Shown here: positions 6,988 to 26,418 of the stretch, one piece after another
Numbering within the stretch: position 1 is the first letter of the stretch
Layout: each line of letters opens with the position of its first letter
Made by a program: the position numbers and the translations under genes
The notes under the pieces: generated by a model
Seen by the model: the letters and a program-made list of their open reading frames with translations, nothing else
What the model was told of the DNA's origin: nothing
Database searches by the model: none
From: Paludisphaera rhizosphaerae
Lineage (GTDB): Bacteria; Planctomycetota; Planctomycetia; Isosphaerales; Isosphaeraceae
Direction of reading: 5' to 3'
DNA: 64,000 nucleotides
Assembly (NCBI RefSeq): GCF_011065895.1
Contig: NZ_JAALCR010000009.1
Span: forward strand, 62,001 to 126,000

Positions 6988-9900
6988 TTACCTCGGCATC
7001 CAGACGCGGACCAGGGAGAGGAGCTTCTCAACGTCGAGGGGCTTGGCCATGTAGTCGTTGGCTCCGGCGGAGATGCATTTCTCCTGATCGTCGGGCATGG
7101 CCTTGGCGGTCAGCATGATGATGGGGAGATATTTCCACTCGTTCCGCTTGCGGATCTCGCGGACGGCGGTGAGGCCGTCCATCTCCGGCATCATGACGTC
7201 CATGAGGACCAGGTCGATCCGGAGCGCGGGATCGGCCCCGGACGTTTCCAGGGCTTCCAGCGACTCGCGGCCGTTGCGGGCGATCTGCACGATCGAGCCC
7301 CGGCGCTCCAGGACGCTGGTGAGCGCGAAGACGTTGCGGACGTCGTCCTCCACGATCAGGACTCGCTTGCCCTCGAGCGCGGCGTCGCGGCTCTGGGCCC
7401 GTTCGAGCATCCGCTGCTGTTCCGGAGGAAGGTCGGCCACGACCTGGTGGAGGAAGAGCGTCACCTCGTCCAGCAGCCGTTCGGGGGACTTGGCGCCCTT
7501 GATGATGATCGACTTCGAATAGCGACGGAGCGTCTGTTCCTGCTCGGCCGTCAACTCGCGCCCGGTGTAGACGATGACCGGCGGGAACGAGTAGGCGTCC
7601 TCACGGCTCAGCGTCTCCAGCAGCGAGTATCCCGAGGCGTCCGGCAACGAGAGGTCCAGGACCATGCAGTCGAACGTCTCCTCCTTGAGCCGGGCGAGGC
7701 ATTCCGCAGCGCTCCGGACGCCGACGGTCTCGACGTCGTGGGTGCCCAGGAGTTTGCGGACGCTGTCGAGCTGAACGGCGTCGTCCTCGACCACGAGCAC
7801 CCGGCGCATTCGACGAGAGAACCGCCTCTCCAGGCCGCCGAGGGCCTGGATCAACTCATCCCGCTTGACCGGCTTGAGCATGTAGCCGACCGCGCCCAAC
7901 GAGAGCGCCGTCTGTGCGTAGTCGCCGCCGGAGACGACGTGGACGGGGATGTGCCTTGTGCGGGCGTCGTGCTTGAGGCGGTCGAGCACGGTGAGCCCCG
8001 ACTGGTCGGGAAGGCCGACGTCGAGCACGATGGCGCTGGGGAGATACTGAACGGCCACCGCCACCGCTTCCTCGGCCGTCGCCGCGACCAGGCACTGGAA
8101 GTCCAGCTCCCGGGCCAGGTCGTAGAGGATTCTCGCGAAGGCCTCGTCGTCCTCGACCACCAGGATGACGCGGCCGTTGCCATTGAGGCGCTCTCGGTCG
8201 TCGTCGATTCGCCTTGGAGCGATGGGCGACGATGGAGCAGCCTCGACCGGGCGTCGGGGCTGATCGACGGAGGCGTCGGGGACTGCGTCGCTCAGTACGG
8301 CGCGGGGCGGCGCCTTGTCGATCATCCGGGGCGCGACGAAGCTCGGGTCGTAGGTCGCCGGGATCGTCACCGTGAACGAACTGCCGCGGCCCGGCTGGCT
8401 GTCCAGCTTGATCGATCCGCCGAGAAGCCTCGCCAACTCGCGTGAAATGGAGAGCCCCAGGCCGGTGCCGCCGTACTTTCGGTTGGTCGTGCCGTCGGCC
8501 TGGTGGAAGGCCTCGAAGATCACCTCTTGCTGATCGGCGGCGATGCCGATTCCGGTGTCCTCGACCGTGAAGCCGATCCGACCCTTGGCGTCGGTCGCAA
8601 CCACAAGCTTGACCTCGCCGCGCTCGGTAAACTTGAACGCATTCGAGAGAAGGTTTTTGAGCACCTGTTCAAAACGTTGCCTGTCGGTCTGGATCTCCTC
8701 AGGGCAGTCGGGGGCGATCTTCGTCGAGAAGGTGATTCCCTTCTCGTCCGCCACTGGGCCGAAGGTACGCGACAGACCTCCAAGAAGGTCGGCGATCGCG
8801 ACGGGCTCGGGCCGGACGTCCATGCGGCCGGCCTCGATCTTGGAGAGGTCGAGGATGTCGTTGATGAGATTCAGCAGGTCGTTGCCGGCCGACTGGATGG
8901 TCCGAGCGTACTGCACTTCCTCATCGCTCAGACGTCCGCCCGGGTTGTCGGAGAGGAGCTTGGCGAGGATGAGCGACGAGTTGAGCGGGGTCCGAAGCTC
9001 GTGCGACATGTTGGCCAGGAAGTCGGACTTGTAGCGGCTCGCCTGTTCGAGTTCGCGAGTCCGGAGTTCCAGCGACCCCCGCGCCCGGGCGAGACCGTCG
9101 CGCTGGTCTTCGAGCGTCCGCGTCTGCTCCTCAAGCTGCACGTTGACCTGTTCAAGCTCCGCCTGTTGCAGTTCGAGCTGGGACTGCGATTCTTTGAGGG
9201 CGCGGCTCTGCTCGTCAAGCTCCTCGTTCGAGACCCGCAGCTCTTCCGCCTGAGCTTGAAGCTCCTCCGCCTGGCGCTGGGTTTCTTCCAGCAGGTTTTG
9301 AAGGTGCAATCGGTAGTCGGCCGCCCTCAGGGCTCGGGCGATGAAATCCGAGTTTGTGGAGAGGAGCTCGCTCGACAGCGGCCCCATCGTGTGGAGGTTG
9401 CCGAGCTCGATCAGGCCGGCCACGCCGCTTTCGGATTTCACGGGTGAGATGACGAGATGCCCCGGCTTCGATCGGCCGAGTCCGGTTCCGATCGTCAGAT
9501 AGCCTTCGGGGACGTTGTCGAGAACGAAGGCCCGGTCGTCCCTGGCCGCCTGCCATAGCAGACCGTCGCCCGCCTCGACGCGCTCGGGGACGGCGCCGTC
9601 GGTCGGCACGCCGTACGCGGCGATCCGATTGAAGCCGTTTCCAGCCCGGGCGAAGAACGCGCCAGCCTGCGCGCCGAGATATTCGGCGAGGAACTTCAAT
9701 GCGTTCTCGCCGATCTGGTTGGGCTGCTGGTCGCCGGCCAGGGCGGTACTGAGGCCCACCGTCCCCTTCTGGAGCCACTCCCGGCGGCGCTGGGCCAGTG
9801 CGGTTCTGCGGAGGAAGAGCCACAAGGCGGCCGACAAGGCGACGCCCAGCAGGGCGCTGAGGATCCCGCTCCCCACCGCCATCTTGAAGGCGCCGCCGGC

Positions 9901-20739: not shown

Positions 20740-21225
20740 CTACAGGTTCAGAAGACGGTCCCGATCGCGGACGCGGAGGGGCGTCGGACCTGGTCGCGAA
20801 GGGGCGTCGGAGTGAGAGGAGGGCCGATCAAGGTCGACGTCGCCGTCGACGATCCGGCGCGTGAGCGATAGGTAGCTGTAAGGGCTGGGGGGCGTCGGCG
20901 GAGTTTCGTCGCGCGACGGGGGCGCGACCGCGACCGGCGCGGAGGCATCCGCCGAGGCCGCGGCCAGAGCCAGGGCCGATTCGAGGTCCAGGCCGCGGCG
21001 ATGCTCGCGAGACCAGGCCGCGCCGAGGCCGGCCGTCGCCAGGGCCAGCGCGACGGCCGCGGCGGCGACGACTCTCAGGGGGCGGCGGCCTTCGGCGAGG
21101 CCTGCGGCGCGGCCGGCTTCGTAGAGGGTCGCACCACGGTCCAGGCCGCCGGCCGAGGGTCGCCAGCCGTCGAGCCGGGATTCCAGCGCGGTCAGGTCGT
21201 CGATTCGGTCGTCGTTGATGGACAT
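20740..21225 (-). CDS. probable membrane anti-sigma factor
   Basis: A 161-residue protein with an N-terminal cytosolic part (residues 1-50, helical), one membrane segment (about 55-75, LRVVAAAAVALALATAGLGAAW) and a short, Pro- and Ser-rich exterior tail. It lacks the zinc-binding HxxxCxxC of the other anti-sigma candidates. Its start overlaps the end of the ECF gene by 34 bases, a strong sign of coupled translation and of a partner role. The anti-sigma call is therefore from position and topology, not from sequence family. Confidence 0.6.
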   Translation of the reverse strand: MSINDDRIDDLTALESRLDGWRPSAGGLDRGATLYEAGRAAGLAEGRRPLRVVAAAAVALALATAGLGAAWSREHRRGLDLESALALAAASADASAPVAVAPPSRDETPPTPPSPYSYLSLTRRIVDGDVDLDRPSSHSDAPSRPGPTPLRVRDRDRLLNL

Positions 21226-21704
21226 GGTCGTTCCAGCCTTTCCTGAAGCCGGGCGAGCCCGGACTTGTATCGTCGATGCGCGGCGGCCGTGGAACACCCT
21301 TGAAGCACGGCGATCTGGTCGAAGGTCAGTCCGCCCCAGATGCGGGCTGTGACGGCTTCGCGGGACTCGGCGTCCAACTCGGCTAAGAGCGAGGACGCGT
21401 CACGGGCGTCGAGCCGGTCGTCCACCGAGGCGAACCAGGCGTCGGCCTCCGATCGGCTGACCAGCCCCTCGCGGGCCCGGCGCCGGCGGTCGCCGCGGTG
21501 GGCGGAGACCGCCGCGTTGCGGACGACGCGATGGAGCCAGACGGCCGGTTCGTCGGGCAAGCGCCCCTGCCGCGCCAGGGCGACGAAGGCGTCTTGCACC
21601 AGATCCTCGGCCTCGGCGGCGTCGCGCCACTGGCGGGCGTAGAGGACCAGGGCCGCCGCGTGGGCGTCGAAGAGGCGTCCCAACACGTCCGGCCCGATCG
21701 TCAT
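21192..21704 (-). CDS. ECF-type RNA polymerase sigma factor
   Basis: A 170-residue sigma-70 family ECF factor. Region 2 includes YARQWRDAAEAEDLVQDAFVALARQG with the D-L-V-Q-D-A-F motif, and WLHRVVRNAAVSAHRGDRRR is the end of region 2. Region 4 has LDAESREAVTARIWGGLTFD and QGCSTAAAHRRYKSGLARLQ, the DNA-recognition helix for the -35 element. It has no extra C-terminal domain. It is followed by the TM anti-sigma candidate with a 34-base overlap and then by the secreted 490-residue protein. The ECF subgroup cannot be named from sequence alone. Confidence 0.92.
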   Translation of the reverse strand: MTIGPDVLGRLFDAHAAALVLYARQWRDAAEAEDLVQDAFVALARQGRLPDEPAVWLHRVVRNAAVSAHRGDRRRRAREGLVSRSEADAWFASVDDRLDARDASSLLAELDAESREAVTARIWGGLTFDQIAVLQGCSTAAAHRRYKSGLARLQERLERPCPSTTTESTT

Positions 21705-21829: not shown

Positions 21830-22129
21830 TTACACGTCCCGTCGTTCGTCGGGGGAGGCGTCGTGGAGGGTGCGGAGAATTCGGGCTCGCGCCTCGGCGC
21901 TGAGGGCGTCGAGCTCGATCGATTCGCCCAAGGTTCTTTGGCGGCAGGCTTTGCGGAGGAACTGGATCTGGCGGCGGAAGCGACGACAGGGCGGGCAGAT
22001 GATCAGATGGCCGCCCAACGCCAGGCGGTCGACGAGGTCGAGCGGCTCGTCGAGCTGGCGCGAGGCCAGCTCGGACGCCGAATCGCACGCGAGGGTCAGG
22101 ATCGAGCGGAGCCGTCGCAATCGCTTCAT
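21830..22129 (-). CDS. small zinc-type anti-sigma factor (ZAS-like)
   Basis: A 99-residue soluble protein without a membrane helix. It keeps the complete zinc-associated anti-sigma pattern: C15, H41, C45 and C48 (C-x25-HLIICPPC), with an extra C62. In the known ZAS family (RsrA, ChrR) this site binds zinc, and in some members it senses disulfide stress. ATG overlaps the TGA of the ECF gene upstream by four bases (ATGA), so the pair is translationally coupled. Being soluble and of minimal size, it fits a cytosolic redox or metal sensor better than an envelope sensor. Confidence 0.85.
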   Translation of the reverse strand: MKRLRRLRSILTLACDSASELASRQLDEPLDLVDRLALGGHLIICPPCRRFRRQIQFLRKACRQRTLGESIELDALSAEARARILRTLHDASPDERRDV

Positions 22130-22755
22130 GGACGTCTCGGAGGGCCGTCGGCGTCGGTGCCGAACCAGTGTTTCTCCAGGCAGGCCCGGAGCAGGATCCG
22201 CGCCCGGTGGAGCCGGACTCGCAGGTTGCCGGGGTTGACGCGGAGGTCGACGCGGAGTTGATCAAGTTCCACGCCCTCGACCTCCCGGAGCAGGAAGGCC
22301 CTGGCGAGGTGGCCGGGGAGGCGAGACGAGCAGTCCTCGAACACCCGCCAGAAGTCGGCGTCGTCGAGCGCCGCCTCGGGGGATCGCCATTTCGCCGGGG
22401 CTTCCCGCCAGCGGCCCCGGGCGTCGAACAGGTCCGACGACGGCCGATCGCCGGGACCGGGGAGGTCCGCTTCGATCATGGCCGAACTCGACCGCTCACG
22501 GCGATAATGGTCGGCGATCTTCCGTCGGAGAATGCCCAGCAGCCAGGTCCGGGCGGCGGCCTCGCCGCGATAGAGGTGGACGCCCCGGAGGGCTGCAAGG
22601 AGAACGTCCTGGACGAGGTCCTCGGCGATCTCCCGACGACCGACGCGCGCCCGGGCGTAGCGGTAGAGCGCGTCGCCGTGCCGATCCAGCCAGGCGGACG
22701 GGTCGGCGGTCTCGTCGGCAGGCCCGGAGGTCCCAGGGTTCGGAGTGCTCGACAT
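22126..22755 (-). CDS. ECF-type RNA polymerase sigma factor in a redoxin operon
   Basis: A 209-residue ECF sigma factor. Region 2 has WLDRHGDALYRYARARVG, AEDLVQDVLLAALRG and TWLLGILRRKIADHYRRER. Region 4 is partly diverged (LDQLRVDLRVNPGNLRVRLHRARILLRACLEKHWFG), including ARILLR of the helix-turn-helix. It starts 12 bases after the stop of the redoxin gene on the same strand, with the DUF1223 gene upstream of that, and is followed by the ZAS-like anti-sigma gene in a 4-base overlap. The four genes therefore look like a single operon. Confidence 0.92.
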   Translation of the reverse strand: MSSTPNPGTSGPADETADPSAWLDRHGDALYRYARARVGRREIAEDLVQDVLLAALRGVHLYRGEAAARTWLLGILRRKIADHYRRERSSSAMIEADLPGPGDRPSSDLFDARGRWREAPAKWRSPEAALDDADFWRVFEDCSSRLPGHLARAFLLREVEGVELDQLRVDLRVNPGNLRVRLHRARILLRACLEKHWFGTDADGPPRRP

Positions 22756-22767
22756 CGCGGCGGGGCC

Positions 22768-23343
22768 TCACTCGCCCCCGGTTCGCATGCCCGGGGCTTG
22801 CAAGATCTCGGGCGCCTTCACGCGTCCGCCGTGCCCATGGCTGACCTTCGCGAAGGCGACCTTACGCCCCGGGCCGATCACGAACGTGGAGGGGTAAGCC
22901 GTCTCGCCCGGGGCGTCCCAGCGGAGCCCGTAGGCCCTGGTCACGGCGAAGTCGGGATCCAGCACGAGGTCGAAGTTGTCGGGCAGCCCCTTGCCCGACG
23001 CGAAGTCCTGGGCGTGCGCCTTCAGGGCTTCGGCCGGGCCGGGATAGAGCAGGACGACCCGGGCCTTTCGCTCGCGGAACTGACCGGCATTGCGGACCAG
23101 CTCGGCGACTTGCGCCGTACAGGCCGGGCACTCGTAGCCCGGCCAGCCCCGGAGGACCACCAGGACCACGGGCCCCCTCTCGGTCAGCGTCTCCAACCGA
23201 ACGGCCCCGTCGGCGAGGGTTTTGAGGGTGAAGTCCGGGGCCAGGCCCCCGACGCTCGGCGGAGCGACGGGGCCGGCCGCCAGGGCGCCGGCGACCAGGA
23301 ACAGGAAACCGCAAGGAGGTGAAAGACGGTGAATCGTACGCAC
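22768..23343 (-). CDS. secreted redoxin (AhpC/TSA-like) with a CxxC
   Basis: A 191-residue exported thioredoxin-fold protein. The Sec signal (RLSPPCGFLFLVAGALA) leads to a peroxiredoxin-like domain with LAPDFTLKTLADGAVRLETL and LRGWPGYECPACTAQVAELV. C72 and C75 form an ECPAC redox pair at the active position. I start it at GTG 23343 because GGGAG is upstream and because the paralogue at 25390 begins at the equivalent place; the longer ATG at 23388 gives a poor signal. It sits 48 bases downstream of the DUF1223 gene and 12 bases before an ECF sigma gene. Possible substrates are extracytoplasmic peroxides or disulfides. Confidence 0.85.
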   Translation of the reverse strand: MRTIHRLSPPCGFLFLVAGALAAGPVAPPSVGGLAPDFTLKTLADGAVRLETLTERGPVVLVVLRGWPGYECPACTAQVAELVRNAGQFRERKARVVLLYPGPAEALKAHAQDFASGKGLPDNFDLVLDPDFAVTRAYGLRWDAPGETAYPSTFVIGPGRKVAFAKVSHGHGGRVKAPEILQAPGMRTGGE

Positions 23344-23391
23344 GGCAAGTCTCCCGAGGAACTGATTCCCACCAAGGATTCCACACATCGG

Positions 23392-24201
23392 TCACTTCGC
23401 TTTCGTCGCCCGCCACGGGATGTCGACGGCCTGGTAGACGACGGCCGTGCGCTTGTTCTGGACGAAGCAGGCCAGCCGCAGCCTGTCACGCTTCCAGGCG
23501 GGGTCGATCGTGAAGGCGAACTGCTTCGACGCCGGGGCGGTCCCATTCAACTCGACGAAATCGTACTCGGTCCGGCGGGCCGGGAACCGGGCGATCAGGG
23601 TCTTGCCGGCGTTCTCCCCAGACTGGACGTCGGTCGAGACGCCGTCCTCGCGAAGCACCGCGCAGACGAGCAGCGGCGCGTCGTCGAGCTTCGTCGATCG
23701 GCGAGCGACCGCGACGAACGCCTTGCCCGACAGTCCATCCTCAGCGACGTCGAGTTTCACGTCCAGCGACACGGCGGGCGGTTTGGTCCGAGCCGCGCGG
23801 ATCGCGGCGGCGGCCGAGGCCGGGTCGCGGCCGTTCACCGACCGGGCGCCGTCGATCATCAGCATCGGCGTATAGTAGAGGCCGTACGATTCGGGCTTGG
23901 GCCCGGTGTAGACGTCGTTGTAGACCATCTGCCGCTGGCTGTAGATCGGGTCGGAGAAGACGTCTTTCCACGGCTTGTTGAAGTAATCGACGTGGAAGGC
24001 GATGGGGACGATCCCCGGGTTCTCGGCGGCGAGCCGGCCCAGGATCTCCTCGGCGGCGGGGCACATGTCGCACCCCTGCGAGGTGTACAACTCGACGAGG
24101 ACCCCGCGCTTGGACGACGAGGGCTCCTCAGCGGCCGAGGAGGAGGGGAGGGCCGCCAGGGCGACGACGACTGCGGCGAGGAGCCGGCTTTGAGGGGGCA
24201 T
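23392..24201 (-). CDS. DUF1223 thioredoxin-like secreted protein
   Basis: A 269-residue exported member of DUF1223, which has a thioredoxin-like N-terminal half. After the signal (LLAAVVVALAALPSSSAAEE), VELYTSQGCDMCPAAEEILGRL contains the conserved C44-D-M-C47 pair, followed by FHVDYFNKPWKDVFSDPIYS and YTPMLMIDGARSVNGRD, both typical of the family, and a C-terminal beta domain. The function of DUF1223 is not established; an extracytoplasmic disulfide role is inferred from the CxxC. ATG 24201 is first in the probable operon DUF1223, redoxin, ECF sigma, ZAS anti-sigma. A decayed paralogue lies at 26023-26418. Confidence 0.85.
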   Translation of the reverse strand: MPPQSRLLAAVVVALAALPSSSAAEEPSSSKRGVLVELYTSQGCDMCPAAEEILGRLAAENPGIVPIAFHVDYFNKPWKDVFSDPIYSQRQMVYNDVYTGPKPESYGLYYTPMLMIDGARSVNGRDPASAAAAIRAARTKPPAVSLDVKLDVAEDGLSGKAFVAVARRSTKLDDAPLLVCAVLREDGVSTDVQSGENAGKTLIARFPARRTEYDFVELNGTAPASKQFAFTIDPAWKRDRLRLACFVQNKRTAVVYQAVDIPWRATKAK

Positions 24202-24444
24202 TGAGGAGTCTCCTGGAGCGAGGCCGCGACGGAGGAGGTCGAGGCGGTCCGGTCGCCCCGAGGACGCTGGCAAGACGCCGCCCGCGGCCGAGTTATTCGC
24301 CCCTATCGCCGATCCGCAGGAAATCGCCCCGGACGCGTAACGCTCGAAGGGATCCCGCGACTAATGCCAGGGCGACGGCCAGGAGGCCGCGCCGATCCGC
24401 CTCCCATGAGGCACGGTTTCGAGCAATCCAACAGAGGACGATCC
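24202..24444. promoter_or_regulatory. divergent promoter region between DUF1223 operon and PEP-CTERM gene
   Basis: This 243-base spacer must carry promoters for the minus-strand DUF1223-redoxin-ECF operon and the plus-strand PEP-CTERM gene. No clear -10/-35 pair or inverted repeat is seen by eye. Confidence 0.35.
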
Positions 24445-25254
24445 ATGCTGAGAACCCACCTCGCGCGGGCCCGGTCGCTCGCGCTCACCGCCTTTCTCGT
24501 CGTGATCGGTTGTGCATCGGCGGCCGCCGGCGAGTTGCAGATCACGGTGACCAGCAATCAACCGGCCGGCGGCTTCGCATTTTCTCCGGTGTGGTTCGGG
24601 GTCCACGACGGGACCTATCGCACGTTCGCCCCGGGGACGGCGGTCTCGCCGGCCTTGCAGGCGGTCGCCGAGCTGGGAGACCCCTCGGCGCTGGCGACGG
24701 CCTTCACCGGCCACGGCTCGCAGGCGATCGCGGGCTCGGCGCCGATCGGGCCGGGGGGGACGGCTTCGACGATCCTGGACGTCGCCTCCCCGACGACGCA
24801 GCAGTACCTGAGCTTCGCGTCGATGGTGGTCCCCTCGAACGACTTCTTCTTCGGGAACTCCGACCCGTTGGCGTTTCGCTTATTCAACGCCGCCGGCCAG
24901 TTCCTGGGGCCGATCACCATCCAGATCTTCGGCTTGAACGTCTGGGACGCCGGCAGCGAGCGGAACGACATCGGCTTCGGCGCGGCGTTCATCGTCGGGG
25001 ACGACGCCACGGGCCACGTCGCCGAGAACGGCGTGGTCGCGCCCGTCTTCGGCGGCTCGGCCGACAATTCGGCCTACCTCGCCTCCATCCTGGGCAAGTC
25101 CACGCCGTACGGCTACGACATCTCGCACCTCATGAGCCCCGGCGACCTCATCGCCACGATTCGGATCGAGGCCGTCCCCGAGCCGGCGTCGATCGCGATG
25201 TTCGGCGCGGGCCTCGTCGCGATCGGCGTCGCGACACTTCGGCGGCGCGGCTGA
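24445..25254 (+). CDS. spondin-like secreted protein with PEP-CTERM signal
   Basis: A 269-residue exported protein. A Sec signal (ALTAFLVVIGCASAAAG) is followed by a beta-sandwich with FSPVWFGVHDGTYRTFAPGT and a GDPSALATAFTGHG stretch that resemble the spondin N-terminal domain. The last 24 residues have the PEP-CTERM layout: VPEPAS, a hydrophobic helix (IAMFGAGLVAIGVATL) and a basic RRRG end. PEP-CTERM proteins are sorted by exosortase and often linked to exopolysaccharide; the exosortase is not in this window. AGAGGA precedes ATG 24445. The gene is wedged between the intact and the decayed copy of the redoxin-DUF1223 cassette. Confidence 0.85.
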   Translation: MLRTHLARARSLALTAFLVVIGCASAAAGELQITVTSNQPAGGFAFSPVWFGVHDGTYRTFAPGTAVSPALQAVAELGDPSALATAFTGHGSQAIAGSAPIGPGGTASTILDVASPTTQQYLSFASMVVPSNDFFFGNSDPLAFRLFNAAGQFLGPITIQIFGLNVWDAGSERNDIGFGAAFIVGDDATGHVAENGVVAPVFGGSADNSAYLASILGKSTPYGYDISHLMSPGDLIATIRIEAVPEPASIAMFGAGLVAIGVATLRRRG

Positions 25255-25389: not shown

Positions 25390-25971
25390 TCAAGGTTGCA
25401 GCGTCGTGGCCGAAACGCCCAGGGCTTGCAGGATTTCGGACGCGTCCGCACGGCCGCCGTGGACGCGGCTGACCTTCGCAAAGGCGACCTTACGGCCGGC
25501 GCCAAGCACGAAGGTGGAGGGATAAGCCGTTTCGTCCCCGCCCTCCCAACGCAGGTTGTAGGCCTTGGTCATAACGTAGTCGGCGTCCAGCACGAGGTCG
25601 AAGTTGCCCGGGAGATCCTTGGCGGCGACGAATGCGTCGGCGGCCGCCTTCAGACCGTCGGCCTCGCCGGGATAGACCAGCACGACCCGGGCGTTTCTCG
25701 CCCGGAACTCCGCGGTTCTTCGGACCAGATCGGCGACCTGTTGCGTGTCGTAAGAGTCCTGGAATCCCGGCCAGCCGCGGAGGAGCACCACGACCGCCGG
25801 CCCTTGCTCCACCAACGCTCCCAGATGGACCGACTTGCCGGCGGGCGTCTTGAGCGTGAAGTCCGGCGCCTGGCCGCCCACGACCGGCGGTTCCTTCGAG
25901 CTCTGCGCCCCGGCGCTGGAGACGAGGAGCAGCAGCAGGCACGGCTGGAAGAGGCGGAGGGCCGAGTGCAT
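25390..25971 (-). CDS. redoxin paralogue without its active-site cysteines
   Basis: A 193-residue exported paralogue of the redoxin at 22768, of the same length and alignable without gaps through residue 80. It keeps the QAPDFTLKTPAGKSVHLGAL and LLRGWPGF blocks and the signal peptide. Where its sister has ECPAC (C72, C75) it has QDSYD, so both redox cysteines are replaced by aspartates, and the mature protein has no other cysteine. It therefore cannot act as a thiol peroxidase or thioredoxin in the usual way. It may be decaying, or kept as a structural or binding protein. The remnant of DUF1223 lies 51 bases upstream. Confidence 0.85.
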   Translation of the reverse strand: MHSALRLFQPCLLLLLVSSAGAQSSKEPPVVGGQAPDFTLKTPAGKSVHLGALVEQGPAVVVLLRGWPGFQDSYDTQQVADLVRRTAEFRARNARVVLVYPGEADGLKAAADAFVAAKDLPGNFDLVLDADYVMTKAYNLRWEGGDETAYPSTFVLGAGRKVAFAKVSRVHGGRADASEILQALGVSATTLQP

Positions 25972-26022
25972 CGTCGAAGTCTCCAGAGGAAATGTAGGGT
26001 CATGTAGAATCATACACGAACA

Positions 26023-26418
26023 TTACTTGGCCGGCAGGCCCTGCCATGGAAGATCGACCGCCTGATGAACGACGGCCGTCCGCTTGTCTTGCACGAAGCA
26101 GGCCAGTCGCAATTTATCGCGATCTCAGGATGGGTCGATTGTGAAGGAGAACTGCCTGGAAACGGGGGCGGATCCACTCAATTCGACCAAGTCGTACTCG
26201 GTGCGACGGGCCGGGTAGCGGGCGATCAGAGTCTTGCCGGCGTTCTCGCCGGAGATCCCCGGATTCTCGGCGGCGGGGCACATGTCGCACCCCTGCGAGG
26301 GGTACAACTCGACGAGGCCCCCGCGCTTCGCTGGGGAGGCGGCCTCCTCGGCGGCCGCGAATTGGACGATCGTCGTCAGGAAGACGGTCACGGCCAGGTG
26401 CAGCCGGCGGAGCGGCAT
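26023..26418 (-). pseudogene. decayed DUF1223 gene (two deletions and one nonsense codon)
   Basis: A remnant of the DUF1223 gene at 23392. The signal region and CDMC pair remain, but nine codons are missing between two CTCGGCGGCG repeats that flank the lost 27 bases in the intact copy, and about 129 codons are missing between NPGI and SGENAGKT. The reading frame is kept. A TGA at 26125-26127 stands where the intact copy has a Trp codon, and the remaining 33 codons past it still read DRDKLRLACFVQDKRTAVVHQ and end in TAA at 26023. The full span of 132 codons equals 269 minus the two deletions and the stop. This shows the gene is dead or reduced to a short secreted peptide. Confidence 0.85.

Follow-up and report, generated by a model that had tools for sequence, protein, structure and literature searches.

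Conserved linkage of an ECF sigma factor, a soluble zinc anti-sigma factor and a spondin-domain PEP-CTERM protein in planctomycetes points to a probable surface-protein switch

We consider it likely, from comparison of sequences, that the window (i.e., the whole 64,000-nt stretch of Paludisphaera rhizosphaerae DNA analyzed here) encodes a two-part switch similar to sigmaE/MseR, which mainly controls a surface spondin protein and into which a DUF1223 protein and a redoxin were recruited in one lineage. In the predicted circuit, a soluble zinc-thiol anti-sigma factor would hold an ECF sigma factor in check in the cytoplasm. Once released, the sigma factor would activate a dedicated promoter, GTAAC-N16-CGACTAA, leading to transcription of the neighboring spondin gene, and the exported spondin protein would be sorted to the cell surface or matrix by an exosortase. 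The exported DUF1223-redoxin pair appears to have been inserted, in the host lineage, between the promoter region and the sigma gene, and we propose that this placement ahead of the sigma gene would tie its expression to the switch. Comparison of genomes shows the genes, their conserved linkage, the motif and the fact that the motif stays with the spondin gene. The features are listed in the table.

Features of the predicted switch and its surroundings in the window
Feature	Position	Strand	Description
Soluble zinc-type anti-sigma factor (ZAS), 99 aa	21830..22129	-	C15-H41-x3-C45-x2-C48; zf-HC2, NF052368
ECF sigma factor, 209 aa	22126..22755	-	Sigma70_r2, 59 bits; nearest group TIGR02943/PRK11924
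Redoxin	22768..23388	-	Exported, CxxC; AhpC-TSA, 77 bits; lineage-specific member; alternative GTG start 23343
DUF1223 protein	23392..24201	-	Exported, thioredoxin-like, CxxC; PF06764, 145 bits; lineage-specific sigma-operon member
Predicted ECF promoter GTAAC-N16-CGACTAA	24337..24364	+	Faces the spondin gene; sole exact match in the 8-Mb genome
Spondin-domain (F-spondin-like) protein with PEP-CTERM sorting signal	24445..25254	+	Exported; divergent from the four-gene set
Second redoxin copy	25390..26013	-	57% identical to the first redoxin; both CxxC cysteines lost
DUF1223 remnant	26026..26415	-	Internal deletion (residues 65-193) and premature stop at 26125

As for the DUF1223, redoxin, ECF sigma and anti-sigma genes, which the initial annotation read as a possible redox-sensing operon, they are indeed arranged head to tail on the minus strand. 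The gap of 12 nt between the redoxin and sigma genes and the 4-nt overlap between the sigma and anti-sigma genes are as described, while the 48-nt gap reported between the DUF1223 and redoxin genes depends on the GTG start of the latter; it shrinks to 3 nt if translation begins at the in-frame ATG at 23388. Both exported proteins contain the expected CxxC (C44/C47 in the DUF1223 protein and C87/C90 in the redoxin), and the 99-residue protein possesses a complete C-H-C-C motif and no membrane helix (the best 19-residue Kyte-Doolittle mean being 1.07). A crude consensus scan for a promoter or terminator splitting the set detected no sigma70-type promoter or terminator inside it. Downstream, 125 nt after the anti-sigma gene, begins a region (20740-21704) with a further ECF sigma gene (21192-21704, minus strand) followed by a gene for a 161-residue protein with one hydrophobic stretch, possibly a second sigma/anti-sigma pair.

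The sigma factor has the general ECF architecture, with sigma2 and sigma4 and no region 3 (TIGR02937, 66.8 bits vs. 42.9). It scores 59.1 with Sigma70_r2 (cut-off 24) and 23.2 with Sigma70_r4_2, which is slightly below the cut-off of 25.7. It falls short of membership in TIGR02943, with 152.0 bits against a curated cut-off of 162.2; a Burkholderia relative scores 242. The 99-residue protein is recognized by zf-HC2 (22.3 vs. a cut-off of 22.2) and by the NCBIfam anti-sigma model NF052368 (59.5 vs. 50), and it displays the features of ZAS group IV, namely HxxxCxxC with an upstream Cys in a protein encoded beside an ECF gene. C15, H41, C45 and C48 are invariant across 26 homologues, their register matching that of RsrA and MseR (PMC2893595), and a further cysteine, C62, is not conserved. 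Its predicted structure is helical (pLDDT 87), the best Foldseek match of this model being RsiW, which is weak (E = 1.2), and sequence matches in the PDB are weak as well. The sequence features support a soluble ZAS-type anti-sigma factor paired with an ECF sigma factor, the former presumably binding the latter.

Two neighboring features were left out of the initial annotation. One is the spondin PEP-CTERM gene, transcribed divergently from the set, and the other is a degenerate copy of the DUF1223-redoxin unit. This second unit, located beyond the spondin gene (at about 25393-26415 on the minus strand), shares ~72% nucleotide identity with the first. For the spondin gene, we prefer the start at 24445 because the alternative, an in-frame ATG at 24364, would fall on the -10 element of the motif. 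Its product contains an animal-like F-spondin domain, as judged by PF06468 (34.8 vs. 24) and NF038123 (124.7 vs. 40), and a PEP-CTERM signal typical of exosortase substrates (PF07589, 25.9 vs. 20.7), in a genome with three EpsH-type exosortases. The invariant residues D133, D168 and E172 are candidate calcium ligands. By analogy with its family, the protein is probably a calcium-binding, adhesive or matrix component.

The linkage between this gene and the sigma/ZAS pair was examined in 45 genomes of the host family (G-numbers; further loci are given L-numbers). The 99-residue protein occurs in 19 genomes and the sigma factor in 18, the two being side by side in all 18. The spondin gene abuts the pair in 11 of the 14 spondin-bearing family genomes (the host genome, G001, G002, G006, G007, G008, G021, G025, G031, G040 and G041); in G040 and G041, it is downstream of the pair on the same strand. 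All 14 genomes with spondin have the pair, vs. 3 of 20 listed genomes without spondin (Fisher p about 5e-7, a hand calculation that ignores shared ancestry). Beyond the family, spondin proteins are found in 33 genomes of a 249-genome sample of the host class, with sigma and ZAS genes close by in 15 of the 20 nonfamily loci of the class that have a clear spondin gene. A scan of GTDB contigs extends the linkage to Phycisphaerae/Phycisphaerales (L158, L166, L169, L170, L178, L181, L183, L186 and L220) and to further Planctomycetota, and the sigma pair is mostly absent from proteobacterial spondin loci. L167, which also carries the linkage, comes from a metagenome-assembled genome labeled Alphaproteobacteria, but its sigma factor pairs with a Phycisphaerae one in the tree, so mislabeling or transfer is possible. 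The association of sigma, ZAS and spondin genes is thus, by sequence comparison, conserved in two planctomycete classes. It is also a wider conserved unit than the four genes initially regarded as functional partners. Among the points against the circuit, some sigma homologues in the family adjoin lactonase-like proteins instead of spondin. At L040, L041 and L044, homologous sigma/ZAS pairs are followed by an exported lactonase-type β-propeller protein, with GTCAG-type variants of the motif in L040 and L041. At L130 and L133, the protein beside the pair is very large (about 1,440 residues) and has four spondin domains.

Nine intergenic regions of the family share one common motif, which is aimed at the spondin gene. 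Its exact form has eight matches in the 45 genomes, six of which are between sigma and spondin genes, and a spacing control with a 15-nt spacer has no match in the same genomes. The match in G029, a genome without the sigma factor, was set aside as due to chance. In G022-G024, spondin is on a different contig from sigma, yet it has kept the motif upstream. By eye, other subclades of the family show GTCAG/GTCAT...CGACYAA or CGACTCA variants before an exported neighbor gene. We then used a degenerate motif on loci outside the family that had defined it, i.e., 28 sigma-linked spondin genes. It is upstream of 14 of these, always with a 16-nt spacing; the remaining spacings between 10 and 23 nt gave no match, nor did the reverse strand. 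A further point against the circuit is that the strict motif is missing at half of these loci, several of which have looser variants. At 5 of the 28, the degenerate motif is present upstream of sigma itself, and second copies precede sigma in several families (L123, L129, L132, L134 and L209). No copy faces the sigma operon in the window, so autoregulation is unsupported there. A one-mismatch search of the host genome yielded only two further sites, and since the total of three is below the 10 found with a reversed-pattern control, we claim no wider regulon. We infer that the adjacent sigma factor recognizes GTAAC-N16-CGACTAA. That the motif is instead the binding site of another regulator of the spondin gene is very unlikely. 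No result of our analysis favors it, and it sits poorly with a bipartite motif of fixed 16-nt spacing that is oriented toward the gene, resembles the known sigmaE promoter (PMC2893595) and recurs upstream of sigma at the loci named above.

Could the four genes nevertheless form a single redox-stress operon, in which the DUF1223 protein and the redoxin repair exported proteins, the ZAS protein is an RsrA-like sensor of disulfide stress and the spondin gene is incidental? Tight spacing and the lack of an obvious internal terminator would fit, as would the recurrence of the order in G002, the operon of G015 and the cluster of G025 described below. However, conservation of the full order beyond one genus did not materialize: among the 45 family genomes, it is intact only in the host genome and its congener G002. 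In a sister genus (G007), a truncated DUF1223 gene adjoins sigma, while G015 has a DUF1223-sigma-ZAS operon in which DUF1223 is divergent. G025 has just two exact matches to the motif, the second of which is upstream of a cluster encoding a small exported protein, a peroxiredoxin, a DUF1223 protein and a further redoxin (L116, C263; motif at 7117, minus strand), far from sigma. With ~200 nt separating it from the first gene, and with the tail of a small ORF ahead of the cluster overlapping it, this match is no more than suggestive. The small exported protein intervening at L116 is Gly/Tyr-rich and has no Pfam match. Against a single redox operon, most sigma/ZAS pairs of the family have no adjacent DUF1223 or redoxin gene, DUF1223 is common in genomes without the pair (G003-G005) and the pair is tracked by spondin. 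Moreover, about 24 DUF1223 loci unlinked to the pair were scanned and have no strong motif, and DUF1223 was rejected as a conserved partner. We therefore regard the single redox operon as improbable, and favor a switch centered on the spondin gene.

Phylogeny is informative about how the thiol genes came to be there. In the DUF1223 tree, the proteins from the window, G002, G003 and G005 and the truncated G007 copy cluster together (91/91, not starred), apart from the other G007 copy. In the sigma tree, the window, G002, G006 and G007 cluster (100/99); this tree has a very long outgroup branch and its proteobacterial placement is unsure. Together, gene order and trees suggest that DUF1223-redoxin entered that lineage in a single insertion and was later lost in places, presumably in this direction. 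In G003 (L083), DUF1223 and redoxin genes are followed by the gene that is found after the anti-sigma gene in G002, with sigma and ZAS missing in between, which suggests either loss of sigma/ZAS or the state before insertion.

The link to exported thiol proteins highlighted in the initial annotation is plausible, since it recurs in G002, G007 (truncated), G015 and G025, but it is secondary to the spondin linkage. Nor is the arrangement as unusual as was thought. Control of exported enzymes for thiol repair by soluble ZAS proteins is already documented in Neisseria (PMC2893595) and Haemophilus (PMC7907618), and thioredoxin, CcdA, sigma and zf-HC2 genes follow each other on a Burkholderia plasmid, an order that would also suit a redox operon. 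Oxidative or thiol stress may be the signal. Compatible with our circuit, and different only in the signal, is the somewhat unlikely alternative that the zinc site of the ZAS protein is structural, that metal, a ligand or regulated degradation is sensed and that surface attachment, not oxidative stress, is what the switch governs. A structural role of ZAS-type domains has a precedent in RsiW (PMC7406223), the conserved target gene encodes a surface protein rather than a thiol enzyme, and published tests saw no response of meningococcal sigmaE expression to oxidants, although MseR needs its cysteines (PMC2893595). Invariance of the four zinc ligands in the RsrA/MseR register and the recurrence of thiol proteins beside the pair argue for a redox signal instead, as does H. 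influenzae rpoE2, which has a soluble ZAS partner and is induced by HOCl and H2O2 (PMC7907618).

An important implication concerns ECF sigma factors at large, since a 2021 review counted 102 of 157 defined groups without mechanistic or functional insight (PMC8103513). The circuit proposed here would be complete (sigma, anti-sigma, promoter and target), found in two planctomycete classes and with a target count near one in the host genome. Through it, assembly of the surface or matrix would be linked to a zinc-thiol switch in the cytoplasm, and bacterial spondin-domain proteins would gain a regulatory context. Searches of a library of open-access papers yielded none connecting spondin or PEP-CTERM proteins with ECF sigma factors, and nothing on DUF1223 and a sigma factor. 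Only tentatively do we go further and envisage a planctomycete-wide, nearly single-promoter switch by which oxidative stress, acting on a zinc-thiol protein in the cytoplasm, would lead to the display of a calcium-binding surface protein of the F-spondin type that is sorted by an exosortase, with exported thiol accessories in some lineages.

How does this circuit compare with known systems? The putative output has a fold matching the F-spondin domain of spondin-1 and mindin, which are the top Foldseek matches (3q13 and 3d34, E about 1e-9) of its structural model (pLDDT 87), but it is bacterial, ends with a PEP-CTERM tail and shows 16-17% identity in structural alignment. The Burkholderia glumae plasmid NZ_CP100267 encodes a sigma factor 41.5% identical to that of the window, with a 69-residue zf-HC2 partner and upstream thioredoxin and CcdA, but the annotation shows no spondin gene in the 4 kb flanking the cluster on each side. 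Streptomyces sigmaR/RsrA likewise involves a soluble ZAS protein, which shares its ligand spacing with that of the window; RsrA governs thiol homeostasis via the thioredoxin system (PMC3961337). Haemophilus influenzae RpoE2/HrsE, which also has a small soluble ZAS protein, controls exported repair proteins including periplasmic MsrAB, and the part of the report available describes no spondin protein in its regulon (PMC7907618). A close parallel is Neisseria meningitidis sigmaE/MseR (NMB2144/NMB2145), which consists of an ECF sigma factor and a downstream soluble ZAS protein with the same four-ligand spacing, and has a small regulon (PMC2893595, PMC3240639). Its promoter comprises a -35 GTMAGBWTT and a -10 CGTCTAAH separated by 12-13 nt, with 16-17 nt from GTMAG to CGTCTAA (PMC2893595), i.e., the same spacing as in the motif of the window, from which it differs by one base in each element. 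However, meningococcal sigmaE targets MsrA/MsrB and its own operon, whereas the motif in the window faces a spondin PEP-CTERM gene and not the sigma operon. The putative switch resembles the known sigmaE/MseR kind but has a different conserved output, a spondin surface protein.
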